DNA of 64,000 nt, taken from the NCBI RefSeq assembly GCF_002443295.1, contig NZ_BAOS01000028.1, positions 1-64,000 of the forward strand, in the 5' to 3' direction. The position numbers and the translations under genes were made by a program. The notes beneath the pieces are model-generated. The model was not told where the DNA came from. It did no database searches and was given only the letters and a program-made list of their open reading frames with translations. Positions 24,708-63,807 of the stretch are shown here, piece after piece (position 1 is the first letter of the stretch; each line of letters opens with the position of its first letter). This DNA comes from Candidatus Scalindua japonica (GTDB lineage: Bacteria; Planctomycetota; Brocadiia; Brocadiales; Scalinduaceae).

Positions 24708-25310
24708 TCACCCAACTTTTGGTAATTTGATAATGATCTTATCACCATCGTGCTCCATCTTTACTCTGGTGCTATCAACTCCCTGGGGCACAGGAAATGA
24801 ACGGCGAAATGTAGAGCTTGAGAATTGTCTGGAATTTCCATTTTTACTTTTCTCTCCTGATTTTTTCTCAACGGTACCGGAAATCTTTATCTGTCCATCT
24901 TCCACACGGATATCGAGTTTTTGATCAGAAAGACCTTTGATAATAACGTCGTAATAGACAAAGTCCTCATCTTCTCTAATTTGAATATCTCCGGGATCTC
25001 CTCCTCCAAACTTATTCTTAAACCACGAATCAAAAATTCCACCACCTTGATCATCATCGAGTTTACCAAACTGCCGCATCATGCTCTCCTGCATTCTTCT
25101 CATCTCATCAAAAGGGGATTTACTGGATCTGAAGAAATCATCATCAAAGAAAGAATCAAGTGTTTTATCCATACTTTCTTCATGATTGGATAATTTGTCA
25201 ATGGTAGTAATTTCATATTTTCCATTGGTCCTATAGCTTTGTACAGCAAACAGTACTGCGGCGCCGAGGGCAAAACATAACACACCGATAGTTATCTGAT
25301 ATTTTAACAT
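24708..25310 (-). CDS. Membrane-anchored Hsp20-type small heat-shock protein
   Basis: The start MLKYQITIG has AAAGG nine bases upstream; an earlier ATG abuts that site. An N-terminal membrane helix (about residues 5-22) is followed by a flexible Asp/Phe-rich linker and an alpha-crystallin domain (DIQIREDEDFVYYDVIIKGL to IIIKLPKVG). The anchor suggests chaperoning on the periplasmic face of the membrane, which is unusual for this normally soluble family. It lies 3.4 kb from four soluble Hsp20 genes, with an insertion element between. Confidence 0.8.
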   Translation of the reverse strand: MLKYQITIGVLCFALGAAVLFAVQSYRTNGKYEITTIDKLSNHEESMDKTLDSFFDDDFFRSSKSPFDEMRRMQESMMRQFGKLDDDQGGGIFDSWFKNKFGGGDPGDIQIREDEDFVYYDVIIKGLSDQKLDIRVEDGQIKISGTVEKKSGEKSKNGNSRQFSSSTFRRSFPVPQGVDSTRVKMEHDGDKIIIKLPKVG

Positions 25311-25439
25311 TACGAACATCCTTTCTTAATGAACATATTACTCACAAAGACTTCCCAATAGCGATAAGAACCGCCAGGAACGCTCCAAAATCACTTCTCC
25401 AATTCCACGATTAAAAACCTCTTCATTTAAAGGTAGATA

Positions 25440-25693
25440 TGGTGGCTCCATATTACGCTACCGGTACCACCATTGAAAACGAAAGAGACAGACCTTTTAT
25501 AGCCATAATGATCGTTTACAGTATAGCTACTATAAAATATCCTGCTGACCGGCTTTGATTCCTTATCCGTGATGCTGCGGTGGCAGTATATTTCAGTATT
25601 TTATCATCTATCGTTATAGCATGTTGGGTAACAACCTTGTTAGGAGGACCAAGAACACCACTCTTCTTCTGACTTTCAGAATTTTCCTCATTA
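25440..25693 (-). pseudogene. Relic of an S10 family serine carboxypeptidase-like gene
   Basis: Translated on the minus strand, one frame gives NEENSESQKKSG...VVTQHAITIDDKILKYTATA. After one frameshift near 25575 the next frame reads DKESKPVSRIFYSSYTVND, then RSVSFVFNGGTGS. This order matches the start of the mature S10 domain: a TQHxITIxxKxxxYTATA strand, an IFYxxYT strand and the FVFNGGPGS oxyanion motif. Stop codons follow directly and the rest of the enzyme is missing. The 5' end abuts the insertion element, which probably landed in this gene. Confidence 0.7.
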
Positions 25694-25698
25694 TTTAG
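25694..25698. repeat. Target-site duplication, left copy (TTTAG)
   Basis: The five bases TTTAG directly outside the left inverted repeat are repeated at 27707-27711 directly outside the right one. This is what a transposition event leaves behind. Confidence 0.65.
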
Positions 25699-25727
25699 GG
25701 TCCGAGAAAAAATAACTTTACAATCTT
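25699..25727. repeat. Left terminal inverted repeat of the IS
   Basis: Begins with GG and ends with the 17-base block AATAACTTTACAATCTT, whose exact reverse complement stands at 27678-27694. Confidence 0.85.
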
Positions 25728-25740
25728 GAGGCCAGAATTC

Positions 25741-26750
25741 TCAACAATTAATTAGTCGATATGTATCCACCGTTTGGAAGAAGTGTATAGTTCCACTTTG
25801 GTATAGTGTTATGTGGCCTAATCTTAATAGTCTTGAAATCTTCATCTGAAATTTTTTCCCTTTTATATAATTTTTTCTAATCAGGTATGCTCTAACGTTT
25901 AAACCCGTATTGGTTTTTGTACTTCTTATATACTTCAAAACAGTTTCATAACTTTTTAGTGGAGTGCCTTGCCAATTTTTAGATATTTCACTAAACAACC
26001 TATGTTCTATGGGATGCCATTTTGAGGCTCCGGCTGGATAATGGCAAACTGTAGCTTCCATACCATATTTATTGCAGAGTAATTCATTCAATTTTAACTT
26101 CTACATTCTGGATCTATAGCCGTTCGTACCTCCAGAATCTACTAAAATTAGTATTTTTCCAGAGTGAGGATACATCCTTTTGCCATAGCATTTCCACCAC
26201 TTTATAATATTTTCCACTACGAATTCGGATGTTTCACTTGAAGTAAATTTGTTTTCTTTTTTATCCCAGAGAGATTGGGATACATGTACAAAACCTTCAT
26301 ATCGCTGAACATCAAGTATCCCGCCGGGAATGGCTCTTCCTATGCCATAGTTTTTAAAGTCGTGATCAAAAACTAAATCGGATTTTTTTTGTATCTGGTT
26401 CCTGGATTTCTAAAATTGCCTATCATTTCTTTAGATTTTGTATCTACGCTTATCACAGAATAACCATGTTTTACAAACTCCTCACGCTTGTTCTTGCTAT
26501 ACTCAAACTGCTCGTTTCTTTCTTCCCGCTCTTCCTTTCTTAGCTTTTTGCCTCCATTTGATATTTTTTTACTGTTACATCGAAGAGAATAGTTCGACTC
26601 TTTGATTAATGTCCCAACCGCTTTCCTGCTGACTTCAATTCCAAGAAAAGTCAATTGTTCTGCAATTTTTCCAGGCGTTCTTCTTATCCACTTCACGCCC
26701 TTCCCTATAGGATCTCCTGTTTTTTCATATTCCATGAGATTTTCAATCAT
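25741..26750 (-). pseudogene. Catalytic part of the ISAzo13-type transposase, broken
   Basis: This continues the transposase reading frame after an A-run frameshift near 26755. First comes a 125-codon frame (26373-26750) containing GVKWIRRTPGKIAEQL and VISVDTKSKEMIGNF, which includes the first catalytic aspartate. A second frameshift occurs in an A/T run near 26380. The sequence goes on through FVHVSQSLWDKK and ILVDSGGTNGYRSRM, the second aspartate block, where a TAG replaces the tryptophan codon usual in the family (near 26102). The last frame (25741-26091) has the HRLFSEISKNW motif with the catalytic glutamate. Three separate lesions make the gene non-functional. Confidence 0.82.
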
Positions 26751-27522
26751 CTTTTCTATTTCCAGGCTTTTTTTTTATGGGTCTTCTGCCACCTCCTTTT
26801 TTACGAACACGTTCAACCTCTAAATCATAGTCCATAATTTCTTTTCGTCCTTTTGCAACGGTGTGGCAATCAATCCCTAAGAGTTTTGAAATTATTTGAT
26901 CTCCGCCATATCCTATCTTTATTGCTTCCAACCCTGAATAAAGGCGTTTTTGCTTTTCATTGAGAAGGCTTGAAAACAATACTATTGCTGCTTCCAATTC
27001 ATGTTGCAGCAAACCATCTTCAACCTTTCCTGATTTGCAATCTTGATCATACAAATATTCCCTTCTGCGAATCACTTGTTTTGTTTGAACATCTGAACTT
27101 ATCGAGAAATAAACGTAAACACCAGCTATCCTTTTTCTACAAAGACACTTCCTCTTAAAAAGGTTAATAAGGGACTCTTTAACGGAAACATGAAGAATAT
27201 CATCAAGCTCGATAACCGAATATCCCTTCTCAGATTTCATTACAAATACTTTTGTAGTCTCCAACAAGGTCCCGTAGGTTGAAAACCAAACAGATTGAGA
27301 AGACCACAAACCGAGATCGTCAAACTTGATAGTCTTCTCAAGCGCATAGTATTTTCCTCGGTGAGAATAACTTGTTCTCAAGGGCAATTCCCTCAACTTC
27401 CTAAATACCGTCATCCGAACATCCGTGCCCAATACTTTCTTTAAATCCTCCATCGTGGCGATTTTATACTGTTCAAGATGCCTTTTTATCCTTGCTGACG
27501 AGTAAGTCCCTGTCTTTGCCAT
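26743..27522 (-). CDS. N-terminal part of the ISAzo13-type transposase with extra DNA-binding-like domain
   Basis: A 259-codon frame at the start of the IS transposase. Residues 175-250 match the normal N-terminal region of ISAzo13 transposases (LLNEKQKRLYSGLEAIKIGYGG, a helix-turn-helix, then RKKGGGRRPIKKK). About 165 residues precede it, reading ARIKRHLEQYKIATMEDL...TVFRKLRELPLRTSYSHRGKYY, a winged-helix-like pattern that the usual transposase lacks. The frame runs off in an A-rich run and ends after an out-of-frame PGNRKDD. It is the 5' part of a disrupted gene, and an independent function is unlikely. Confidence 0.75.
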   Translation of the reverse strand: MAKTGTYSSARIKRHLEQYKIATMEDLKKVLGTDVRMTVFRKLRELPLRTSYSHRGKYYALEKTIKFDDLGLWSSQSVWFSTYGTLLETTKVFVMKSEKGYSVIELDDILHVSVKESLINLFKRKCLCRKRIAGVYVYFSISSDVQTKQVIRRREYLYDQDCKSGKVEDGLLQHELEAAIVLFSSLLNEKQKRLYSGLEAIKIGYGGDQIISKLLGIDCHTVAKGRKEIMDYDLEVERVRKKGGGRRPIKKKPGNRKDD

Positions 27523-27677
27523 GTTACAATTTCTCCCATATTCTTATAATAAGATGAATTGTAACATGGCGAGGCTGTTTGTGCAAGCTTGACTATACCA
27601 ATCTCTCCTGGTTTTTAAGCGCTCATTACACATTTTAGCAAAATGCGCGAAATCATATGCTTGTGACAGTTCTGCTA

Positions 27678-27706
27678 AAGATTGTAAAGTTATTCTTTCT
27701 TGAGCC
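27678..27706. repeat. Right terminal inverted repeat of the IS
   Basis: Reverse complement of the left end with 25 of 29 positions matching. It is followed directly by TTTAG, the repeat of the left flank. Confidence 0.85.
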
Positions 27707-27907
27707 TTTAGTTCACTTAGTACAATAGGATTCTGTAAAAAGTAAATACAAACTAAACTAATGTAAGAGCCGATATATTTACCAGAAGGAAATAAAATTA
27801 TAGTTTAAAGAAAATATTTCATTAAGTTTTCTGGAACTACTCAGAAAATGGTATATGAGGGAACCATAAAATAAAGTTTTTAAAATCTGTTTCTTACTCT
27901 CCCGGTG

Positions 27908-28210
27908 TTACTTTTTACCAGGTTTAACATAAATAAAGTCTTTATTTATGTTAAAAATGTCCTTGCTGATTCCTGGAACATTCAAAAATTCTTCTACCGT
28001 TTTAAAATTTCTAACAGTCTCACGGTACTTTATAACAGCGTCTGCTTTAGCGAGATCGACACCGCCAAGTGTAACTAATTCATGCCTGTCAGCAGTATTG
28101 ATATTGACCTTGCCATAAAGTATTTCTCTAGACATAGCCGGTCTACTAGTAACGCTAATAACAAAAATAAAGATTATAATGCTAAACAGTAATTTTTTAT
28201 TATTAAACAT
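27908..28210 (-). CDS. Secreted ComEA-like helix-hairpin-helix protein
   Basis: A 100-residue protein with an N-terminal hydrophobic signal (residues 8-24) and one helix-hairpin-helix repeat: VNINTADRHELVTLGGVDLAKADAVIKYRE, then FKTVEEFLNVPGISKDI. ComEA proteins bind DNA outside the inner membrane during uptake; the same small form also occurs in bacteria without known competence. The ATG has an AAAGGAGG site. The protein lacks the long N-terminal part of Gram-positive ComEA. No other competence gene is nearby. Confidence 0.82.
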   Translation of the reverse strand: MFNNKKLLFSIIIFIFVISVTSRPAMSREILYGKVNINTADRHELVTLGGVDLAKADAVIKYRETVRNFKTVEEFLNVPGISKDIFNINKDFIYVKPGKK

Positions 28211-28678
28211 TTTTAACCTCCTTTTAATTAAAAAAGTTATTCATGGCCCCTCATATACCATATATATTCTTCTTTTTTTTGCTCTTAGCAAAATTGATTT
28301 TCAAGACTTTCTTTTAATCTGATGAACATAGCTTCTCCTTGCCAATCTTGCAAAGAGCCCGTAAGAAACGGTAAAAATGTAAAAAAACTAGTCAAATTTT
28401 TATACAACCTCGGTTTTAAATTTGTTCCCATGGTGTTTTCAAATTTACTTCCTAACCCATGCAGAAATTTAATCAGTTCTATTATCATTGTCCTAAATAA
28501 CTAATAGGCATGAAGTCGCTTTACATACTCTTTTTTGTATTTTGCTATACAATCAAAAAAATTACTTTGTTACATATTCATGTTGATAGTCAATGCTCTG
28601 TCAATCTACGGTAATCAGTGAGAAGGCACAATCATCCTCTATAGTTGAATATGGTAACAAGGCTTATTTAGAAAAACA
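28211..28678. other. Intergenic region, no gene seen
   Basis: About 470 AT-rich bases. Two overlapping frames of about 60 codons on opposite strands (28285-28504) have no ribosome site and no recognisable motif, except a Cys-x-x-Cys on the plus strand, which is insufficient evidence for a transposon fragment. Confidence 0.45.
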
Positions 28679-28708
28679 TTATGGGGGAGAGAAAATACTC
28701 CCCCATAA
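28679..28708 (-). terminator. Terminator of the small heat-shock gene cluster
   Basis: A perfect 11-base stem (28679-28689 with 28698-28708) with five G-C pairs in a row. On the minus strand a T-rich tail follows. It lies 13 bases beyond the stop codon of the last Hsp20 gene. Confidence 0.8.
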
Positions 28709-28721
28709 AACTTCTGCACAA

Positions 28722-29228
28722 TCATTCAGATTTAACTTCAATCTTTCGTACATTTTCCTGTGCTTTTGTGCTCTTAGGCAGATTTATTTTGAGCACACCT
28801 TTCTTAAAAGCTGCCTTGATGTTCTCCTGCTCAACTTCGCAGGGAACCTGCAGGGAACGGTAAAAAGACCCATAGCTTCTCTCTACATGATAATACTCTT
28901 TATCCTTTTCCTCTTTCTCCTGTTTCTTTTCTCCTTTAATAGTGAGTACATCGTCTCTCAAAGAAATATCAACGTCATCTTGATCCATTCCCGGTACCTC
29001 TACGGTAACTTCAATCTCTTTGTCATTTTCACTTACATTCACCTTTGGTGAAAATTCGACTAACCTCTCTTCCTTAAAAGGCAGGGAAGGAAATCTGTCG
29101 AAACCTCTAAAGAAATCATCAAATAATCGGTCCACTTCTCTATGAAGCGTAGCAACAGGATGTTGAAGTTCAGGTTGCATCTGCTGCTGTTTCTTCCTGT
29201 TCCATGTTATTAAATCTCGCCAAGCCAT
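28722..29228 (-). CDS. Hsp20 small heat-shock protein (fourth of the cluster)
   Basis: A 168-residue ATP-independent holdase. The N-terminal arm includes LHREVDRLFDDFFRGF. The alpha-crystallin domain runs from about residue 60 to 155 and ends with the dimer motif GVLKINLPKS. Its central block is close to that of the 30309-30746 protein (ITIKGEKK with a Glu/Lys run, YHVERSYGSF), so the two are probably paralogues. AAAGGAGG precedes the ATG. It lies 132 bases after the third Hsp20 gene and is followed by a strong terminator. Confidence 0.93.
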   Translation of the reverse strand: MAWRDLITWNRKKQQQMQPELQHPVATLHREVDRLFDDFFRGFDRFPSLPFKEERLVEFSPKVNVSENDKEIEVTVEVPGMDQDDVDISLRDDVLTIKGEKKQEKEEKDKEYYHVERSYGSFYRSLQVPCEVEQENIKAAFKKGVLKINLPKSTKAQENVRKIEVKSE

Positions 29229-29360
29229 TGTAGGCCTCCTTTCTGTTAAAAATTAAAGTTTTCGATGTGTAGGAATTATTTCAATTTACGTCATCGTGAT
29301 GACTCAATTTAATCATCCATTCCTTGTTACTTACTGAAAGAAACCTTATGCCAATCTTAG

Positions 29361-29771
29361 TTACTTGATCTCAATCTTCCTTGGCAGAGATTCCTCTGCC
29401 TTTGGCAATGTCAGAGTCAATACTCCATCAGAGAGATTCGCGTCAATCTTTGCCGTATCGATAATGTTTGATACGGTGAATCTTCGGGTATAATGACCTA
29501 CATTATACTCGGTATATACCGGATTAAGATTTTCATAAGGTGAATGGTCTATCTTGGCATCAACTTCCAGGTTGTTATTTTCAAGAGTGATATTTACATT
29601 TTCCTTTCGAACGCCCGGAACATCCATAACTACCACAAGGCTTTTTTCCGTCTCTGCAATATCAGTCTTAGGAATATAATACTTTCCCGGTACGGTTCTC
29701 TCCCCGGCATATTCGGTTTTTTCCGGCTTCCTGTTTTCAGCTTTTGTTATATCTTTCGTTTCCTTACTCAT
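29361..29771 (-). CDS. Hsp20 small heat-shock protein (third of the cluster)
   Basis: 136 residues. A short N-terminal arm rich in Lys and Glu is followed by an alpha-crystallin domain (PKTDIAETEKSLVVVMDVPGVRKENVNITLEN to LTLTLPKAEE). It lacks the Glu/Lys run in the loop seen in the first and fourth paralogues and belongs with the second protein. It starts 20 bases after the second gene with GAAAGGAGG, so they are co-transcribed. Confidence 0.92.
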   Translation of the reverse strand: MSKETKDITKAENRKPEKTEYAGERTVPGKYYIPKTDIAETEKSLVVVMDVPGVRKENVNITLENNNLEVDAKIDHSPYENLNPVYTEYNVGHYTRRFTVSNIIDTAKIDANLSDGVLTLTLPKAEESLPRKIEIK

Positions 29772-29791
29772 GATATCCTCCTTTCAAATAA

Positions 29792-30211
29792 TTATTGGAT
29801 TGTAATCTGTTTTGGTTTGTCTGCTTCCGCACGTGGTAGAGTAAGTAAAAGAAGACCGTCCTTATATTCCGCTTTTACCTTATCGGCTTCAACGTTAACG
29901 GGCAGTCTCACTGTCCTGTCAAATTTCGAGGAATCGCGCTCAACACGGTGATAGCTGGTATTTTCACCGTACTTTATGGTGCGTTCTCCTGCAAGTCGTA
30001 ATGTGTTTCCTTTCACTTCAATATTCAGGTCCTCCTTTTTTACACCGGGTAATTCGGCGACCAGAACCATTTCGCCATCCTTCTCAAAAATGTTGACCGG
30101 TGGATTCACACCTCGACTCGTTGTTGCGCTATCAAAAAATCCTGTATTAAATGAACGATCCATTGCTTCCTGTAAACCTAATAATGTTTCAAGTGCTCCT
30201 GGTAATAACAT
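29792..30211 (-). CDS. Hsp20 small heat-shock protein (second of the cluster)
   Basis: 139 residues from MLLPGALETL, set by AAAGGAGG nine bases upstream; an earlier in-frame ATG has no such site. The alpha-crystallin domain covers about residues 35-130: PPVNIFEKDGEMVLVAELPGVKKEDLNIEV, RLAGERT, then GLLLLTLPRAEADKP. It is separated from the first gene by a strong hairpin and runs closely into the third. Confidence 0.93.
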   Translation of the reverse strand: MLLPGALETLLGLQEAMDRSFNTGFFDSATTSRGVNPPVNIFEKDGEMVLVAELPGVKKEDLNIEVKGNTLRLAGERTIKYGENTSYHRVERDSSKFDRTVRLPVNVEADKVKAEYKDGLLLLTLPRAEADKPKQITIQ

Positions 30212-30263
30212 GTTAGACCTCCTTTCAAATTTAATAAAATTTCTCTTATAAACCATTTTTGAA

Positions 30264-30298
30264 TGTTGAGATGCGGGACAAAACCCCGCATCTCAACA
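30264..30298. terminator. Perfect hairpin between the first two Hsp20 genes
   Basis: The 14-base arms 30264-30277 and 30285-30298 are exactly complementary around a 7-base loop. It begins 11 bases after the stop of the first Hsp20 gene and lacks a T run on either side. It may end or attenuate transcription, or stabilise the upstream message, giving unequal levels of the paralogues. Confidence 0.65.
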
Positions 30299-30308
30299 TG
30301 TTACAAAT

Positions 30309-30746
30309 TCAGGCACTCTTAACGGCAATCTTCTTTGTCTCTGACTTCTCCATCTTTGGCAGAATAATTTTAAGAACGCCCTGATGTTCCTTCGCTTCTA
30401 CCTTCTCTTTGTTGACTTGTGCAGGAAGTTCAATTGTACGGGTGAAACTACCATAAGTCCTTTCAACCCGATGATAAGATTTTTCCTTCTCTTCCTTCTC
30501 TTCCTTTTTTTCTCCCTTTATTATCAGCATGTCATTTACAATTGAGATATCAATATTTTTTGGATCAACTCCGGGGATTTCAGCATTTACGATAATATCG
30601 TTGTCTGTTTCAGCGATATCAATATCAGGATTCCATCCACCCCCAGGAGATTTTGTATTCCAGAAGTTATCAAACAGCTTGCTCATATCATCATTAAATG
30701 CATCGAATAAAGGTAATCTATTCAATCTTATTAATTCCCTTTTCAT
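30309..30746 (-). CDS. Hsp20 small heat-shock protein (first of the cluster)
   Basis: 145 residues from MKRELIRLNRLPLF, chosen because AAAGGAGGG stands eight bases upstream; the frame is open 36 codons further but reads as leader sequence. An alpha-crystallin domain with NPDIDIAETDNDIIVNAEIPGVDPKNIDISI, a Glu/Lys loop, YHRVERTYGSF and GVLKIILPKMEKSE. It is the promoter-proximal member of the run of four. I see no CIRCE-type inverted repeat upstream. Confidence 0.93.
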   Translation of the reverse strand: MKRELIRLNRLPLFDAFNDDMSKLFDNFWNTKSPGGGWNPDIDIAETDNDIIVNAEIPGVDPKNIDISIVNDMLIIKGEKKEEKEEKEKSYHRVERTYGSFTRTIELPAQVNKEKVEAKEHQGVLKIILPKMEKSETKKIAVKSA

Positions 30747-31043
30747 TTTATGTCCCTCCTTTAAACTAAGCGTTATTGTAATTTTATATTTCTTTTTGAG
30801 ATCTTTTCTCTCTTTGTTTATTAAACGTAGCAAGGGGTGTGCCAAAATATGCAAGGTGCTATAAACACATGACTTGTGTGTTTGATCACAAAAAATAGTA
30901 TCTTTTTAAGCAAAAACGGGAATGAAATTTCCCTTTTATGCTGGGTTTTCATTCTCATATAGAATAAACTGTAGGAGAAAGCGGAACAAGTGTTAGTGGT
31001 ATGATGTTATTGTTTATGAAATATGGACTTATATATATGATGA

Positions 31044-36855: not shown

Positions 36856-38985
36856 TTATTCTCCTCCTTTCTGCCCAAGGGCCTGTAGGTAGGCGATCAA
36901 AGCGGTTATCTCCCTGTCTGATACGTCTAATTTTACTCCCTGCTTTTTCAGGCCTTCTGCAATCTTCTTTGCCTGTTCTTTTGCGTGATTATCCGCATTA
37001 GACAGGTCCTCATCTGAATAAGGAACACCCAGTTTCTTGAAAAGTGATACTTTTCCCCCCAAACTGCTGAAATTGATTTTTGATGTAATCAGCCAGGGGT
37101 AAGCGGGCATAATCGATTCTTTAATAACCGCTCGTGGGTCTTCCATGTGCATGTAGTGCCAGAGATCCGGATATTTTTTGCCAAGCCGCGCCAGATCAGG
37201 ACCGGTACGTTTAGAACCCCACTGAAACGGTCTGTCATACATGGACTCTTCGATTGTAGACCTAGGTCCATATCTCAACTCATCAGAATGTAGTGTGCGA
37301 ATCATCTGAGAATGACAGGTAAAACAGCCTTCTTTCACGTATATGTCTCTTCCTGCCAGTTCTAATGGTGTAAAAGGCTCAACTTTCTTTTCTGTTTTAA
37401 CGTATTTATTTATAGAGAGCGTTGGCACAATCTCTATTATTGAGCCGACTAATATGGCGATAAGGGCCAGAATAGTAAATGTGGCAGCCATTCCTTCAAG
37501 TTTTCTATGTCCATGTTCAACATGAACCGGTGCGGTTGAGGATGTTTTAACTTGTACGGTATCGTCTGGCAGCTCTTTTGGCGCCTGTTTTATCGTTTTA
37601 TAAACATTATAAAGCAGGAGAATAAAACCCCCCAGGAACAAGATACCACCTAACGCACGGAAGAGGAATAGAGGGAAAATCCGTATTACCGTTTCCACAA
37701 AATCCGGGTATACAAGACGGTCATTTGCATCCACAGCTCCCAGCATTAAACCTTGAGTAATTCCAGCTGCCAACATGGAAACGTAATAAAAGAGTATTCC
37801 CAGGATACCAATCCAGAAATGGATGTTTGCCAGTGTCTTACTGTATAATTCAGTTTTCCATAATCTTGGTACGATAAAATATATCATTCCAAAAGAGAGA
37901 AAACCGTTCCAGCCCAGTGCTCCTAAATGTACATGTCCAACTATCCAATCAGTATAATGTCCCAATGCATTTACCGCCTTTATCGATAAAAGCGGCCCTT
38001 CAAAGGTGGCCATTGCATAGAAGGTTATGGCTGCAACTAAAAATTTTATGATAGGATCTGTTCTCAATAAATGCCATGCGCCTCGAAGTGTCAGTATTCC
38101 GTTAACCGCTCCTCCCCAGCTTGGAGCCCAAAGCATAATGCTGAATACGGTAGCTAATAATTGAAGCCATTCTGGCAATGCGGTGTTTAAAAGGTGATGG
38201 GGTCCCGCCCAGATATACATGAAAATGAGAGACCAGAAATGTATGACTGAAAGTCTATAACTGTAGATGGGCCTGTTTACTGCCTTGGGCAGATAATAGT
38301 ACATTAAACCCAGGAAGGGAGTGGTTAAGAAAAAGGCAACGGCATTGTGTCCAAACCACCATTGAACAAGGGCATCCTGGATACCAGCAAAAACTATGTA
38401 ACTTTTGAATGGGCTTACAGGTATACTTATTGCGTTCACAATATAGAGAAGCGCAACAGTAACAATAGTAGCTATGTAGAACCAGATAGCTACATACAGA
38501 TGTTTTTCATTACGTTTTAGTAGTGTGCCAAAGAAATTGATGGCAAAGACAACCCAGATTAGTACAACCGCAATATCTATAGGCCATTCCAATTCGGCAA
38601 ACTCTTTACCCTGCGATAAACCAAGGGGTAGCGTAATTGCGGCTAAAGCAATAATAAATTGCCATCCCCAGAAATGAAGTAGACCCATTCCATCAGAAAA
38701 CATCCTTGTTTTCAAGAGTCTTTGTGTAGAATGATAAATACCAGCAAAGATGGCATTTCCAGCAAAAGCAAAAATTGCTGCATTGGTGTGTAATGGTCTT
38801 AAGCGACCAAATGTTAACCATCCGGTAATGTTAAGCTGTGGAACTGCCATTTGTAAAGCGATGATTATTCCCACCAACATAGCAATTGTTACCCAGAATA
38901 TGGTTGCAAGGGTAAACATCCTGACTATTTTGTCATTATATTTAACCAGGACCACGCCGGAGTTGGTATCATTCGAAGAGCTCAT
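36856..38985 (-). CDS. ccoNO: Fused cbb3 cytochrome oxidase subunits I and II (CcoN-CcoO)
   Basis: 709 residues uniting two normally separate subunits. Residues 1-480 are the 12-helix CcoN with the haem and copper histidines visible in RPLHTNAAIFAF, WWFGHNAVAFFL, AGPHHLLNTALPEW and WIVGHVHLGALGWNG. After another membrane helix (about residues 500-520), the CcoO cytochrome c domain has CFTCHSQMIRTL and a methionine-containing IMPAYPWL. It reduces oxygen with high affinity while pumping protons. Fused NO forms are known in some phyla. It is preceded by an AGGAA site and directly follows ccoS. Confidence 0.95.
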   Translation of the reverse strand: MSSSNDTNSGVVLVKYNDKIVRMFTLATIFWVTIAMLVGIIIALQMAVPQLNITGWLTFGRLRPLHTNAAIFAFAGNAIFAGIYHSTQRLLKTRMFSDGMGLLHFWGWQFIIALAAITLPLGLSQGKEFAELEWPIDIAVVLIWVVFAINFFGTLLKRNEKHLYVAIWFYIATIVTVALLYIVNAISIPVSPFKSYIVFAGIQDALVQWWFGHNAVAFFLTTPFLGLMYYYLPKAVNRPIYSYRLSVIHFWSLIFMYIWAGPHHLLNTALPEWLQLLATVFSIMLWAPSWGGAVNGILTLRGAWHLLRTDPIIKFLVAAITFYAMATFEGPLLSIKAVNALGHYTDWIVGHVHLGALGWNGFLSFGMIYFIVPRLWKTELYSKTLANIHFWIGILGILFYYVSMLAAGITQGLMLGAVDANDRLVYPDFVETVIRIFPLFLFRALGGILFLGGFILLLYNVYKTIKQAPKELPDDTVQVKTSSTAPVHVEHGHRKLEGMAATFTILALIAILVGSIIEIVPTLSINKYVKTEKKVEPFTPLELAGRDIYVKEGCFTCHSQMIRTLHSDELRYGPRSTIEESMYDRPFQWGSKRTGPDLARLGKKYPDLWHYMHMEDPRAVIKESIMPAYPWLITSKINFSSLGGKVSLFKKLGVPYSDEDLSNADNHAKEQAKKIAEGLKKQGVKLDVSDREITALIAYLQALGQKGGE

Positions 38986-42637: not shown

Positions 42638-42763
42638 CTATTCATCAATCTTGCACCTCATCTTCTGGCGACAACAGTTCAGAGTTCCATCCCCACCTTT
42701 TATTACTACAACTTCAGCTCCACATATTTCACAATAGTATAATTCTGTTTTATGCGAAGGCAT
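42638..42763 (-). CDS. Desulforedoxin-like mini-protein
   Basis: A 41-residue protein that shows CEICGAEVVVIKGGDGTLNCC: cysteines C11, C14, C30 and C31 in the CxxC...CC spacing of desulforedoxin and the N-terminal domain of desulfoferrodoxin, which bind one iron. It lies directly downstream of a ferritin-like gene on the same strand (21 bases after its stop). An electron-transfer role in peroxide or superoxide reduction is inferred from this context. No downstream partner domain is present. Confidence 0.7.
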   Translation of the reverse strand: MPSHKTELYYCEICGAEVVVIKGGDGTLNCCRQKMRCKIDE

Positions 42764-42784
42764 TTTATAGCTCCCTGATTTATA

Positions 42785-43243
42785 TCAGTTTTCTTTATAT
42801 ACTACATCATCATATTCTGTTTCAATTTTTTCTTTGTGTTCAAGCTCTTCTGCTGCAAGTTCCTCAAAGAGGCACTTGACATCTTCACTGGTAACAACCT
42901 TTAACATCCTGGCATAGAATTCATAAGCTTTCTGTTCTCTCTTCATTGCGTGTACCATTATATCTTGAGATGTTGAATCCGGAGTAATCTCTTTGTCCAT
43001 CAAATAATCACTTACATGAAGATCATGTGTTTGTGGAACGGTATGATGTTCATGAGCAACATCGTCTAGATTAAAGTTTTCCAATTTCACCTTATGTTTC
43101 AGTTCAATACTTGCAAATTCCTTTAGTAATGTTTTTGCAGAAGGATCTTTTGCTACATCTGCTGCTGTTGCGTAAAATTCACTTGCGTCAGTTTCATATT
43201 GAATTGCCATATCCATAATTTCTTTCAGCTGCTTGTGAGCCAT
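42785..43243 (-). CDS. Ferritin-like (rubrerythrin-type) di-iron protein, copy 2
   Basis: A 152-residue four-helix protein. Its helix motifs carry the carboxylate and histidine ligands expected of the family: ETDASEFYATAA, EFASIELKHKVKLE, KREQKAYEFYARM and ELAAEELEHKEKIE. The rubredoxin domain of true rubrerythrin is missing but is supplied nearby as separate mini-genes. Such proteins reduce peroxide or handle iron. A TAAGGAGG site precedes the ATG. It is paralogous to the neighbouring 43271-43732 gene, 27 bases upstream, so the pair arose by tandem duplication. Confidence 0.88.
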   Translation of the reverse strand: MAHKQLKEIMDMAIQYETDASEFYATAADVAKDPSAKTLLKEFASIELKHKVKLENFNLDDVAHEHHTVPQTHDLHVSDYLMDKEITPDSTSQDIMVHAMKREQKAYEFYARMLKVVTSEDVKCLFEELAAEELEHKEKIETEYDDVVYKEN

Positions 43244-43270
43244 TTTTTTAACCTCCTTAATAATATAGTA

Positions 43271-43732
43271 TTATTCACGATACATTATATCCCAGAACAG
43301 GGCCTCAATATCCTCTTTGTGTTTAGTCTCTTCCTGTGCCAGCCAGGTAAACAATTTTTTTAAATCTGAATCTTTCACGTGTTCAGACATATTGCGATAA
43401 AATTCATAGGCCTTTTTCTCTCTTTTTGCCGCATAAACGAGTACGGCCTTAAAATCAGGGGTTTCACCAAGGCCTTCATCTGTATCAGTAAGGAATTCTG
43501 TTATTCCCTGTCGAGATGTTTCAACTGTTTCAATTTTTAATTTTTCAAGCGTTTCCGCATTAAAATCCTCAAGCATCTGTTTATGTTTCAGCTCTTCTTC
43601 TGCAAACCTGTTTAAGACACTCTTTGTTTGTAAATCTGTCATCTTGTCTGCAGCATTTTTGTAAAGCATGTACGTGCCATTTTCCTTAGCTGCAGCTCTC
43701 TTTAAAATCGACTCTATCTTTTCGTTTTGCAT
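43271..43732 (-). CDS. Ferritin-like (rubrerythrin-type) di-iron protein, copy 1
   Basis: A 153-residue relative of the next gene, with the helix motifs KENGTYMLYKNAAD, RFAEEELKHKQMLED, KREKKAYEFYRNM and WLAQEETKHKEDIE giving two ExxH-type iron-binding helices pairs. It has no rubredoxin domain. The start overlaps a 48-codon Cys-rich frame by 25 bases. Peroxidase or iron-storage function is inferred from family and context in an oxygen-defence cluster. Confidence 0.87.
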   Translation of the reverse strand: MQNEKIESILKRAAAKENGTYMLYKNAADKMTDLQTKSVLNRFAEEELKHKQMLEDFNAETLEKLKIETVETSRQGITEFLTDTDEGLGETPDFKAVLVYAAKREKKAYEFYRNMSEHVKDSDLKKLFTWLAQEETKHKEDIEALFWDIMYRE

Positions 43733-43854
43733 AATAATTTTTTTGCTATCATTATCTGCCTACAGCTACAGCACTTAATCACTCCGCCACCATCAATTGT
43801 AATGTCAAATTCAGTTCTAAATATCAATTTACATTCACTTTCCGTTCTGTTCAT
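43708..43854 (-). CDS. Possible Cys-rich mini-protein between rubredoxin and ferritin genes
   Basis: A 48-codon frame starts inside the end of the rubredoxin-like gene and overlaps the start of the ferritin-like gene. It contains GGGVIKCCSCRQIM, a three-cysteine cluster resembling the second half of the desulforedoxin-like protein at 42638, but the first CxxC pair is missing. Overlaps on both sides suggest translational coupling or a decayed copy. Uncertain. Confidence 0.4.
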
Positions 43855-43990
43855 CTTCAGGAATGAAATCTTTAGGAACATAATTGGTTATTTCTCTGAA
43901 TTCGCATGTTTTATCACATGAAGGACATTTTTCCGGAGGCTCATTTACATCAAGTTCATAACCACAGTTATCACATTTCCATTTATTCAT
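43835..43990 (-). CDS. Rubredoxin-like mini-protein
   Basis: A 51-residue protein with WKCDNCGYELDVNEPPEKCPSC: C6, C9, C22 and C25 form the Fe(Cys)4 site with the short spacing of the rubredoxin domain of rubrerythrin. It therefore looks like a rubrerythrin rubredoxin domain encoded separately from its ferritin-like partner, which follows two frames downstream. It would carry electrons from the FAD oxidoreductase at 44350 to the di-iron proteins; that is inferred. Confidence 0.82.
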   Translation of the reverse strand: MNKWKCDNCGYELDVNEPPEKCPSCDKTCEFREITNYVPKDFIPEDEQNGK

Positions 43991-44046
43991 AAAAAGCTCT
44001 TTTAGTTATCTGTCTTAAAAAATATTTCTATATATTACTTAATAAT

Positions 44047-44322
44047 CTAATCAGTGACTGCTTTCTTTCGCTCCATTCTCTGCCCACAGCACTCCAAAAT
44101 ACCTGCTGTCTCTTCTACAACTGCTATTTGCTGTCCACATTTTTTGCAGATATAAGTCGCTCCCCCAACGGGGTTGGGATGAACTGAAGTCCAGGTTGCC
44201 ATCATACCCTCAACAAGTTTCATCTCCTGCCCACAGCAGACAAGCACTCCAAAAGCACCTATCTTCACTTCGACTTTTTGCCTGCAAATCTCACAAAAAT
44301 ATACCTGGCCTTTTTGTCCCAT
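44047..44322 (-). CDS. Tandem desulforedoxin-like protein (two iron sites)
   Basis: 91 residues containing two copies of the desulforedoxin motif: C10-x-x-C13 with C29-C30 and C59-x-x-C62 with C78-C79, each followed by Gly-Gln-x-Met. Natural desulforedoxin is a homodimer of one such unit, so this protein may be a covalent dimer. It lies 27 bases downstream of the FAD oxidoreductase gene, which marks it as a likely electron acceptor of that enzyme. Confidence 0.78.
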   Translation of the reverse strand: MGQKGQVYFCEICRQKVEVKIGAFGVLVCCGQEMKLVEGMMATWTSVHPNPVGGATYICKKCGQQIAVVEETAGILECCGQRMERKKAVTD

Positions 44323-44349
44323 TTTACATTTTCTCTATTATTATATTAA

Positions 44350-45723
44350 TTATTTTAACATCTTCTCAGTTACTTTTAGTTCAATACCGCAAGCCGGACA
44401 AGTTATTTTATCTCCAGCCTTTGCGTCAGGTGGTATTGGAAGTTCAAGCTTACACACAGGACATAAAAAACCACGAAAACTACTTATTCGAGAAAACATA
44501 TCAAACATCTGCTTTAAAAGCTTTTTATCAATATCTGAATAATTCGTTTTATTTTTTATAACCTTTGTAATCTCTCTGGCTTCCTGAACATTGCCGATAA
44601 AGAGAGCTCCTACTACTCTGTCATTTTTCAAGACAAGTTTTTTATAAACATCAATCTCGGGATGAGGGTAATCACCCCTCACTATGTCATAGTCGCCATT
44701 TAATTGATTTGAGACTCCGATTGAAACTATATCAATTCCACATATTTGTGTTGCGCTGATACTTGCGACCTCATCATATTCCGCATTATTTCCTGCCATA
44801 TTTGAACCTGCAACCTGCCCCTGTTGCCACGCTTTTAACCATCGGACATTAATTTCAGGAATTTCAGAGTCCGGGTCGATTGGCAATTGAGCTACATCAC
44901 CGGCGGCATAAATATTGTCATAATTAGTTAGCATTTTATTGTTTACCAAAACACCGTTATCAGTGTTTACACCACTATTCGTCAAAAAACCGATGCTGGG
45001 CTGCAGCTTATCAACAATACCAAGAACCTGACAGTCAATTTGTTCGCCATCTGTTGTGATTATCCCATTAACTAACCTGTTTTTTATAAACACCTCTTTT
45101 ATGTCTGTTTCATGTTTTACCTTAATGCCCTTGCCTTTTAATCTTTGCATAAGTATATCAGATGCATCTTTATCCATGATTTCAGGCCATAGTCTATTCC
45201 CACGTAATAAATAGGTTACTTCAAGTCCGCTACTAAGTAACGCTTCTATTAACGCTAATGTCAAAAAATCTTCTCCGACTACCACCGCGTTCTTGGCGGA
45301 TTTAATCTTTTCCTTTATGTTTTTGGCATCATCAATTGTTTTCAGCTGGACGATGCCTCCATTTAAGTCGCTTCCTGGATAGCTCCTTCTTTTTATAAAC
45401 CCTCCAGTTGCAATCAGTAATGAGTCATAATTAATTGTAGAATCGTCTTTTAAAATAATTTCATTAGCGTCAGGCTTGATACCGGTTACTGTCTTACCAA
45501 GGCAAGTAGTAATATTGTTATCTTCATAAAAAATCTTCTTTTTTCCCCATAATCTCTCTTCTTCGATCTTTCCAGCAACAAATTGCGGAAGTTGTGGCCT
45601 GTAATAGAAAGCGTAAGCTTCGTTGCCAATTATTGTTATTTTACAACCGGAGTCATGTTTTCTGATTGTTTCCGCAGCCTTTATACCGGCAACGCCATTA
45701 CCAATGATTACGTGCTCTGCCAT
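44350..45723 (-). CDS. FAD/NAD(P)-dependent oxidoreductase with C-terminal zinc ribbon
   Basis: About 457 residues from MAEHVIIGNGVAGIKAAETIRKHD, the FAD-binding GxGxxG. An NAD-binding Rossmann core follows (AVVVGEDFLTLALIEALL), then the FAD-contact segment NIYAAGDVAQL, as in NADH-rubredoxin and nitrite reductase-type reductases. The usual glycine-rich NAD loop is altered to GEDFLT. The last 55 residues add a CPVCKLELPIP...CPACGIEL ribbon, a built-in rubredoxin-like or zinc domain. It heads a run of rubredoxin, desulforedoxin and ferritin-like genes, so it probably feeds NAD(P)H electrons to them. Confidence 0.85.
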   Translation of the reverse strand: MAEHVIIGNGVAGIKAAETIRKHDSGCKITIIGNEAYAFYYRPQLPQFVAGKIEEERLWGKKKIFYEDNNITTCLGKTVTGIKPDANEIILKDDSTINYDSLLIATGGFIKRRSYPGSDLNGGIVQLKTIDDAKNIKEKIKSAKNAVVVGEDFLTLALIEALLSSGLEVTYLLRGNRLWPEIMDKDASDILMQRLKGKGIKVKHETDIKEVFIKNRLVNGIITTDGEQIDCQVLGIVDKLQPSIGFLTNSGVNTDNGVLVNNKMLTNYDNIYAAGDVAQLPIDPDSEIPEINVRWLKAWQQGQVAGSNMAGNNAEYDEVASISATQICGIDIVSIGVSNQLNGDYDIVRGDYPHPEIDVYKKLVLKNDRVVGALFIGNVQEAREITKVIKNKTNYSDIDKKLLKQMFDMFSRISSFRGFLCPVCKLELPIPPDAKAGDKITCPACGIELKVTEKMLK

Positions 45724-45988
45724 CTTTAAAACTTTCAAAAAATTGTGTGTGAAATAAAAACAACTTAATTATAAGTGGATAGTTTACCTTATAAGATCAT
45801 TCTAGTCAACCTTTTGATAGGGCAAACCTTCTGTTAATGAAAATAGAGTTTGTGATTTACAAGAACGGTGTGTGTTTATGTACAATGATGACAAATTCCA
45901 CAGCTGAAATAGAGTGGGAAAACCGTTGGCGCCTTTTTTATTTGAAGAAGAGTGCTTTTCGCCTTAACGATGAAAAGTCTGGATATTA

Positions 45989-46420
45989 TTATACTTCAAA
46001 CTCGGCAGCCCAGAGATCATGTTTATTACAGAAGCTGGTAGCGTAAAGCGTTGTGGTGTCCCATGCATATTGAGAACTGATATCTTTTAGTTCAAATACT
46101 GATTTTGCTGTAGCATCAGAGGGGGAAAAAGTTTTTTCTCCCAGCACTTCTCCACATTTGGTAACTATTGTATGTCTAACGATATAGTGTTCTTCGCTCA
46201 TACCGTGGATAGTCGTGACGGTTACCTTATTTCCTGCAACTTTTACATTTGGCATGTGTCCTTTAACCTTCTTAGACCATTTACCCGGATAATGTTTTGT
46301 ATAAACAATGCCTTTGGGGAAAGAACAAGTTGGACCAGCTGATACTGGAGATATACGGCCTGCCACCACACCGGCAGCTACTGCTAATGATGATTTTAAA
46401 AACGTTCTCCTGGCTGACAT
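45989..46420 (-). CDS. Tat-exported superoxide reductase (neelaredoxin type)
   Basis: 143 residues from MSARRTFLK (AAAGGA eight bases upstream of this ATG). A twin-arginine signal peptide is followed by a centre-II superoxide reductase domain. The iron ligands appear in KGHMPNV, IHGMSEEHYI and SFCNKHDLW, giving the four-His one-Cys site. The enzyme reduces superoxide to peroxide without releasing oxygen. A folded, iron-loaded Tat substrate fits a periplasmic or paryphoplasmic location. A second, cytoplasmic enzyme is encoded at 51097. Confidence 0.85.
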   Translation of the reverse strand: MSARRTFLKSSLAVAAGVVAGRISPVSAGPTCSFPKGIVYTKHYPGKWSKKVKGHMPNVKVAGNKVTVTTIHGMSEEHYIVRHTIVTKCGEVLGEKTFSPSDATAKSVFELKDISSQYAWDTTTLYATSFCNKHDLWAAEFEV

Positions 46421-46426
46421 AATCAT

Positions 46427-51096: not shown

Positions 51097-51471
51097 ATGT
51101 CAAATGATAAAGCACTATTTTGTAAAGTTAATAAACCGGAAGATGTAGAGCCGGATTCTCCGGTGGCGAAAAAACATACACCCGTTATTACTGCACCAGC
51201 TGTTTTTAAGGTGGGTGAGTTTTACGATGTAAAGATTACCGTTGGAGAGATAGAGCATCCGAATGAAAACGAACATTTTATACAGTGGATTGAGTTCTAT
51301 ATCGGAGGTGTATATCTGGGAAGATTTGATTTCGCACCGGTAATGACAAAACCGGAGATAACCATTCCTTTGAAACTGAGTCATCGGGGACTCGATTCTA
51401 CGTTGCGGGCAGTAAGCCGTTGCAATTTACACGGTCTCTGGGAAGGTTCTGTGCCGGTAAAGGCTGAATAG
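51097..51471 (+). CDS. Cytoplasmic superoxide reductase (neelaredoxin type)
   Basis: 124 residues without signal peptide. The centre-II iron site is complete: H27 (KKHTPVI), H54 and H60 (IEHPNENEHFIQWIEFY), C109 and H112 (RCNLHGLWEG). The glutamate that usually precedes the first histidine (Glu-Lys-His) is replaced by Ala-Lys-Lys-His; some active family members also lack it. There is no N-terminal desulforedoxin domain, but separate ones are encoded at 42638 and 44047. AGGAGAG precedes the ATG and a hairpin follows the stop. Confidence 0.9.
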   Translation: MSNDKALFCKVNKPEDVEPDSPVAKKHTPVITAPAVFKVGEFYDVKITVGEIEHPNENEHFIQWIEFYIGGVYLGRFDFAPVMTKPEITIPLKLSHRGLDSTLRAVSRCNLHGLWEGSVPVKAE

Positions 51472-62837: not shown

Positions 62838-63807
62838 ATGATGCAACCTCGCTCCCCCGACGGGAGGGTGAATCTAGAATTAAATATGAGGTTAGGGGTC
62901 TATGAAAGCCTTATGTCAATCCGATTTCTTGTAAAATTACCAAACCGGAAGAAGCACCTACGCTTGAAAGGACTCCGGAAAAAAACAAGCCAGGCTTATT
63001 GGCGTGCCATCCTACGGATCGGTGATAATTTTGACAAGCGAATACACCAGCTATCTAAACTGCACCTACTTGAGAATTTGTCCAATCTCCTCAATACCCA
63101 TTCTTGGAGCGCAGTCAAATTAGACCTCTACGGACTAATTTTTTTCTACACTCATGTGCTTCATAAGGTTTGGGAGCAAGTAAATCTTATACAACCACCC
63201 ATTGCGCCACGTTTGCCGGAATTGGGCCCCTAATAATGAAGCCCACCAACTTTTCCAGGTGACGAGAAAACTCAGTTACCGGGCCTTCTACTTTGTTCTT
63301 TACAGTCTTGGTCTCCGCCTGGGTGAAGGACTACGTCTTGAGGTTAGCGATGTCGATTCTCAGCGAATGCGGGTGCATATCCGCGATAGCAAAGGCAATA
63401 AAGACCGTTTCGTACCCCTGCCAAAGGTAACCCTGAATCTCTTACGCCGTTTTTGGCTTGTTCATCGCAATCCTGTCTTTCTATTTCCAGGCCGTCATGG
63501 TGGCTTGAAATCAGCCCACCTGGCAAAAACACCTCTGAATAGAAATGGCGTTCAGGCCACTCTGCGTAAGGTAGCCCGGGAGTGTGGAATTAAAAAAAAA
63601 TTACACCACACAGTCTGCGACACAGCTACGCAACCCATCTGATTGAGGCGGGTGTTGATCTGCTTGAAGTACAAAAAATCCTCGGCCACCACAGTATTTT
63701 AACCACTGCCAAATATACCCACCTGACCTCTCATACAAATCGTAATGCCTTGCAATTAATTAATGATTTGATGAATGGTTTTTCCATAGAATGGGGGAAT
63801 GTTATAT
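62838..63807 (+). pseudogene. Tyrosine recombinase/integrase broken by two disruptions
   Basis: The first frame (62838-63233) carries an N-terminal core-binding domain (SWSAVKLDLYGLIFFYTHVLHKVWEQ). It is cut at 63231 by stop codons. The second frame (63202-63642) resumes at NEAHQLFQVTRKLSYRAF, then the catalytic SLGLRLGEGLRLEVSDVD and SKGNKDRFVPLP. After an A-run near 63592 the frame shifts again: the sequence [27 protein letters not shown], with the catalytic His-Arg-His, continues to about 63807. All catalytic parts are recognisable but not in one frame. It adjoins an IS91-type transposase, a common pairing. Confidence 0.85.

Follow-up and report, generated by a model that had tools for sequence, protein, structure and literature searches.

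The window, the complete stretch of 64,000 nucleotides of contig C28 analysed here, comes from the 4.8 Mb genome of the marine anammox bacterium Candidatus Scalindua japonica and carries a row of genes for a FAD flavoprotein (PNDOR), small iron–cysteine proteins, two ferritin-like proteins and a superoxide reductase (SOR). The locus raises the question of what this set of proteins does together and where its electrons come from. The initial annotation described it as a modular oxygen-defence cluster built of exchangeable single-domain parts, in which one NAD(P)H reductase serves several iron-protein terminal reductases.

Gene content and organization of the locus

All seven genes of the initial annotation were present where it had placed them, and all lie on the minus strand (Table 1). 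The genes from PNDOR through the single desulforedoxin Dx1 are separated by gaps of 20–105 nt, so their co-transcription is plausible. A scan of the locus detected no terminator-like site between the cluster genes and returned 23 promoter-like sites versus 18 expected. The Tat-SOR gene lies upstream, 265 nt from PNDOR, and this spacing ranges from ~115 to 490 nt in relatives. Three further features absent from the initial annotation were located: a C-terminal ribbon of PNDOR, the remnant of a decayed desulforedoxin, and a signal-less SOR gene on the plus strand.

Table 1. Features of the locus, with window coordinates, strand and the matches on which each assignment is based.
Feature	Position	Strand	Basis
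Tat-signal superoxide reductase, 1Fe type (Tat-SOR)	45989..46426	-	PF01880 5e-8 and TAT_signal; SARRTFLKS signal (RR-x-F-L-K)
PNDOR, FAD flavoprotein, 457 aa, rubredoxin-reductase-like family	44350..45723	-	PF07992 8e-47, PF18267 4e-11
Degenerate NAD(P)H motif G-E-D-F-L-T, PNDOR residues 150-155, in the GxGxxG position	45259..45276	-	
PNDOR C-terminal ribbon CPVC-x17-CPAC (C421, C424, C442, C445), LysW-like	44389..44463	-	PF21344 2e-5
Tandem desulforedoxin Dx2, 91 aa, eight Cys	44047..44322	-	two PF06397 domains
Rubredoxin-like domain, surviving half of a former Rbx-Dx fusion	43835..43990	-	PF21349 3e-9
Decayed desulforedoxin half: frameshifted, CxxC lost, CC kept	43740..43857	-	alignment with 7 relatives
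FerA, ferritin-like di-iron protein, COG1633 type	43271..43732	-	PF02915 6e-14
FerB, ferritin-like di-iron protein, paralogue of FerA	42785..43243	-	PF02915 4e-11
Single desulforedoxin Dx1, 41 aa	42638..42763	-	PF06397 2e-10
Second SOR, cytoplasmic-type 1Fe, without signal	51097..51471	+	conserved neighbour in the window's clade, outside the operon

Conservation of gene order and neighbourhood

Gene-order conservation, which the initial annotation had named as a check, was assessed by searching 16 Scalinduaceae genomes for PNDOR. The gene was present in 13 of them (68–86% identity) and missing from three; in all 13 carriers, PNDOR, the rubredoxin (RbxDx) gene and FerA were adjacent in this order. 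The retention of the order in relatives indicates that the clustering is not due to chance. The wider arrangement seen in the window, with the tandem desulforedoxin, FerB and Dx1 beside cbb3-oxidase genes, is shared by five of the 13, and the remaining relatives carry FerB–PNDOR–RbxDx–FerA or PNDOR–RbxDx–FerA(–Dx1). Tat-SOR was also seen at the locus in four of the five relatives with the same arrangement; the contig of the fifth breaks off within the FAD gene. Relatives with other arrangements have Tat-SOR genes too, at other genomic places. The conserved core is PNDOR–RbxDx–FerA, with Tat-SOR being a neighbour in one clade.

Elsewhere in the Scalinduaceae, some clusters adjoin the gene of a FUR-family regulator, while others have SodC, an AhpC-type peroxiredoxin and a ferritin as neighbours; in some relatives an IscU-like gene is adjacent as well. 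Anammoxibacter encodes the ribbon-bearing flavoprotein between ferritin-like genes, followed by genes for a FAD-linked oxidase and an Fe-S protein. NAD-competent relatives of PNDOR in other phyla have rubrerythrin, desulfoferrodoxin, rubredoxin, FprA or SOR as neighbours. The conserved order and the neighbours in relatives (FUR, SodC, peroxiredoxin, SORs and cbb3 oxidase) support the role in oxygen or peroxide defence that had been assigned to the locus.

Ferritin-like proteins and the broken rubredoxin fusion

FerA and FerB retain a complete 4-Glu/2-His set of di-iron ligands (E17, E47, H50, E105, E135 and H138 in FerA numbering). The predicted FerA model (pLDDT 82) is a ferritin-like bundle, for which the best Foldseek matches were 2fzf and 2oh3 (COG1633), then ferritins and the rubrerythrin 1ryt, all with E > 0.001; the FerA sequence profile matched 2fzf at 1e-15, and weak MbfA erythrin matches were also obtained. 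Both proteins have the di-iron domain of a classic rubrerythrin and neither chain continues into a rubredoxin domain at its C terminus. Three classic rubrerythrins with this C-terminal domain are encoded elsewhere in the genome, and separate parts therefore coexist with fused ones. The possibility of an organism without fused rubrerythrin was rejected on the same finding.

The rubredoxin gene has a different history in the window than its present length suggests. In 13/13 relatives it encodes 77 residues comprising a rubredoxin domain and then a desulforedoxin domain, with all eight cysteines invariant (C6, C9, C22 and C25 in the former; C50, C53, C69 and C70 in the latter). A DNA alignment with seven relatives revealed that a 16-nt insertion disrupts the frame of the window copy, and that its second half carries a 3-nt deletion removing part of the CxxC motif, plus a 6-nt insertion; the desulforedoxin remnant is still readable out of frame (~43857–43740). 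Because there are several separate changes, a simple sequencing error is unlikely. A naturally stand-alone gene was rejected by this alignment, and the "rubredoxin mini-protein" of the initial annotation is better described as a truncated Rbx-desulforedoxin fusion. No other full-length Rbx-Dx fusion was detected among 294 Planctomycetota genomes, in which matches covered one half only.

Flavoprotein PNDOR

PNDOR starts with the ATG at 45723, the same as in relatives, and contains Pyr_redox_2 and Rubredoxin_C domains; its closest solved sequence is 3klj, the NADH:rubredoxin oxidoreductase (NROR) of C. acetobutylicum. It shares with NRORs the Rubredoxin_C domain and the FAD motifs, all intact (GNGVAG, ATGG and YAAGD), and lacks the NAD(P)H-binding GxGxxG. 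At that position Scalindua has GEDFLT as its second Rossmann motif; the counterpart is GDSFLA or GESFLA in Anammoxibacter, and a single Phycisphaerae genome has GESMVS. None of the 17 proteins that form the ribbon clade keeps GxGxx[GA], whereas 64 of the 75 ribbon-less relatives do. The acidic residue usual after beta-strand 2 is also missing in the ribbon clade, and Scalindua PNDOR has another residue in place of Gly in ATGxxP, a later motif.

The C-terminal CPxC...CxxC ribbon is common to all 17 proteins, and its four cysteines are invariant (15/15 sequences). These proteins constitute one clade (tree support 99/92) and are nearest to Chloroflexota proteins, whose motif, GGSFIA, is degenerate in part (support 93/91); the Phycisphaerae sequence is a long branch of unsure placement. 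Brocadiaceae possess a different reductase with an intact motif, and the separate clades in the tree led us to reject the idea that the Scalindua protein is the Brocadiaceae reductase with a decayed NAD site. The ribbon matches the LysW profile PF21344 at a value below the curated cut-off, and this resemblance suggests that its metal is zinc rather than iron. The AlphaFold model of PNDOR (pLDDT 53) was too poor for use. Since the whole clade is devoid of GxGxxG and has an added C-terminal ribbon, NAD(P)H appears doubtful as the electron donor of PNDOR; loss of the motif does not by itself prove that NAD(P)H binding is lost.

Superoxide reductases

SORs occur at four places in the genome: Tat-SOR, the second SOR of the window, C28:65329–65703 and a C5 copy. 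The second SOR and the one at C28:65329–65703 have no signal, and the C5 copy lacks a start as well as the first His ligand. Tat-SOR contains all the iron ligands (H57, H74, H80, C133 and H136), which align with those of other SORs. Its twin-arginine signal and a centre II liganded by four His and one Cys place it in TAT-SOR, an established class of SORGOdb (PMC3116461); it departs from this class in its modest match to the Pfam SOR profile and in having Gly before the first His ligand, H57, where the aligned ordinary SORs have Lys.

Desulforedoxin and SOR domains are never found in one chain genome-wide, which excludes a desulfoferrodoxin and agrees with the earlier view that the two are encoded separately (PF06397 and PF01880 matches at different genome places). 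The broader idea of exchangeable single-domain parts holds only in part: the rubredoxin was formerly a fusion, Dx2 has two domains, and three fused rubrerythrins are kept. Judging from its signal, Tat-SOR is probably exported; it would then not be reduced directly by cytoplasmic carriers and would be unlikely to share their reductase. The picture of a lone NAD(P)H reductase that supplies several terminal reductases is not supported: Tat-SOR has this export signal and forms a separate gene block, and PNDOR has lost the fingerprint.

Tandem desulforedoxin and the complex I operon

Dx1 and both domains of Dx2 show the desulforedoxin pattern (CxxC ... CC in a domain of ~36 residues), and the eight cysteines and parts of the linker of Dx2 are invariant across 14 aligned sequences. 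Of 59 Brocadiales genomes, 40 carry Dx2, counting that of the window, and each of these belongs to the Scalinduaceae or Brocadiaceae; the remaining Planctomycetota sampled gave no full-length match. In every one of the 34 Dx2-bearing anammox genomes from outside the clade of the window, the gene stands beside nuoG on the same strand, and in nearly all of them it also adjoins nuoH, the exceptions being partial matches or contig ends. Within the clade, it belongs to the PNDOR operon in 6/6 genomes (27 nt behind PNDOR in the window), and the nuoG–nuoH junction, read in four of the six with the window's included, measures 69–156 nt without any trace of Dx2. The simplest history would be that, in this clade, Dx2 left the complex I operon and joined the defence operon. 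Among the titles and abstracts listed by searches of the open-access literature, we found no report of a desulforedoxin in anammox bacteria, in complex I or in a complex I operon.

Proposed function and alternative readings

On balance, the Scalinduaceae probably use the operon PNDOR–tandem Dx–Rbx[-Dx]–FerA–FerB–Dx1 as a peroxide-defence chain in the cytoplasm. PNDOR would pass electrons to the small Fe(Cys)4 carriers, namely the rubredoxin and desulforedoxin domains, from which they would reach the di-iron proteins FerA and FerB and reduce H2O2 to water. PNDOR itself has probably ceased to accept electrons from NAD(P)H by the usual route, its donor more likely being a protein, and the separately encoded neighbour Tat-SOR would remove superoxide in the exported compartment. 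Peroxide defence with FerA and FerB as putative terminal peroxidases is supported by the neighbours in relatives and by the precedent of ferriperoxin, a rubrerythrin-like protein without a rubredoxin domain and a proven peroxidase (PMC3317640). Ferriperoxin and FerA/FerB are alike as stand-alone di-iron ferritin-like proteins that need an external electron carrier; they differ in that FerA and FerB are of the COG1633 type and that the partners of ferriperoxin are FNR and NADPH (PMC3317640).

A canonical NROR chain, running from NADH through the FAD protein to rubredoxin and desulforedoxins and on to peroxidases and SOR, would agree with the family of PNDOR, its Rubredoxin_C domain and its similarity to 3klj. 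It would also agree with PMC10156729, in which the Scalindua locus SCALA7_22340, by inference the same gene as PNDOR, is annotated as NROR. The replacement of GxGxxG and of the acidic residue throughout the clade, the altered ATGxxP motif in Scalindua and the Tat signal on SOR nevertheless make this reading unlikely. Still less probable is an iron-handling module in which FerA and FerB would act in iron storage or oxidation, the Cys4 proteins as iron buffers or shuttles, and FUR as the regulator: the ferritin-like fold, the MbfA matches and the adjoining FUR-family and IscU-like genes would suit it, but rubredoxin-type carriers and a rubredoxin-reductase-like flavoprotein stand beside FerA in every relative, and SodC, peroxiredoxin and SOR are among the neighbours.

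A further reading, compatible with the peroxide-defence chain, concerns its electron source. Dx2 may be a complex I accessory that in this Scalindua clade links the electron pool of complex I to PNDOR, so that complex I or a shared donor supplies the defence chain. Its constant place beside nuoG and nuoH outside the clade, its invariant cysteines and conserved linker, and its disappearance from the nuo operon in favour of a position behind PNDOR are consistent with such a link, but genes that lie together need not encode proteins in contact with each other. Dx2 may instead have a role in assembling complex I or in inserting iron, and its relocation may be neutral; we regard the link as a tentative possibility. 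The more specific proposal that Dx2 is a companion of anammox complex I, encoded between nuoG and nuoH and carrying electrons between complex I, or its donor, and other proteins, and that after its move in one Scalindua clade it feeds PNDOR in place of NAD(P)H, is more speculative and rather unlikely.

Relation to known systems and implications

In Clostridium, Dfx, rubrerythrin and FprA receive their electrons through NROR and rubredoxin. The Scalindua operon resembles this system in its flavoprotein family, its small Fe(Cys)4 carriers and its terminal proteins of the di-iron peroxidase and SOR types, and differs from it by the lost NAD(P)H fingerprint, the gained C-terminal ribbon, carriers of the desulforedoxin type and ferritin-like proteins without a rubredoxin domain. 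Dx1 and the copy on C13 are equal in size to the desulforedoxin of Desulfovibrio gigas and have the same cysteine pattern, whereas Dx2 is a covalent tandem and Rbx-Dx a hetero-fusion. PMC10156729 cites the NROR of C. acetobutylicum and already lists NROR, SOR and Rbr for Scalindua; the operon is not mentioned in the available parts of the Scalindua oxygen papers (PMC10156729 and PMC13253579), and the word desulforedoxin does not occur in PMC13253579. The general scheme of one electron chain serving several iron proteins is already known. The new elements are a flavoprotein that bears the ribbon and lacks the NAD(P)H fingerprint, an Rbx-Dx carrier that is broken in this species, and a tandem desulforedoxin that complex I shares.

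These results bear on the electron source for detoxification in oxygen-exposed anammox bacteria, and on marine nitrogen loss. If PNDOR is truly independent of NAD(P)H, the existing NROR annotation would need correction. They also bear on what feeds or drains anammox complex I, for which the conserved desulforedoxin in its operon offers a specific and testable candidate for a site where electrons enter or leave.

Superoxide Reductases and Neighboring Mobile Genes

Besides the Tat-signal superoxide reductase (SOR), the genome has three further SOR genes. In all Scalindua Tat-SORs, that of the window and its relatives alike, the first His ligand is directly preceded by Gly, whereas aligned ordinary SORs carry the Lys of the active-site loop at this position. 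The SOR copy on another contig, C5, lacks its N-terminus and the first His ligand, and is adjoined by transposase and integrase genes. A gene pair consisting of an integrase fragment and a transposase is present in at least three copies in the genome, two of which adjoin an SOR gene.

Other Genes in the Window

The product of the cbb3 oxidase gene, 709 aa long, reads as a fusion of CcoN and CcoO whose C-terminal portion contains a cytochrome c motif. A single stretch of the window also holds genes for five small heat-shock proteins of the Hsp20-like type, four of them consecutive.

Tandem Desulforedoxin and Ribbon Flavoprotein in Other Genomes

In the 34 anammox genomes that have the tandem desulforedoxin gene outside the window's Scalindua clade, it lies in the nuoG/nuoH interval of respiratory complex I. 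In the Chloroflexota flavoproteins, which form the sister clade of the ribbon flavoproteins, GxGxxG is replaced by GGSFI(A/S)YE. Downstream of the ribbon flavoprotein, Anammoxibacter carries a half-ferritin gene (72–77 aa), together with genes for a FAD-linked oxidase (GlcD-like) and a CCG/4Fe-4S protein (GlcF-like); the latter two could possibly represent an alternative electron source.

Locations of the features described (L-numbers denote loci)
Feature	Location	Strand
Tat-SOR	window 45989-46426	-
Further SOR gene	window 51097-51471	+
Further SOR genes	L143:5330-5704; L142:2778-3071	
Integrase fragment and transposase pair	window 62838-63642	+
Further copies of the pair	L142:460-2483; L147:4362-6027	
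cbb3 oxidase	window 36856-38985	-
Hsp20-like genes	window 24708-30854	-
nuo operons with tandem desulforedoxin, other anammox genomes	L163-L172, L190-L213	
Chloroflexota sister-clade flavoproteins	L073, L079, L083, L097, L098, L112 and others	
Anammoxibacter flavoprotein surroundings	L048:8415-13964; L049:7483-13715
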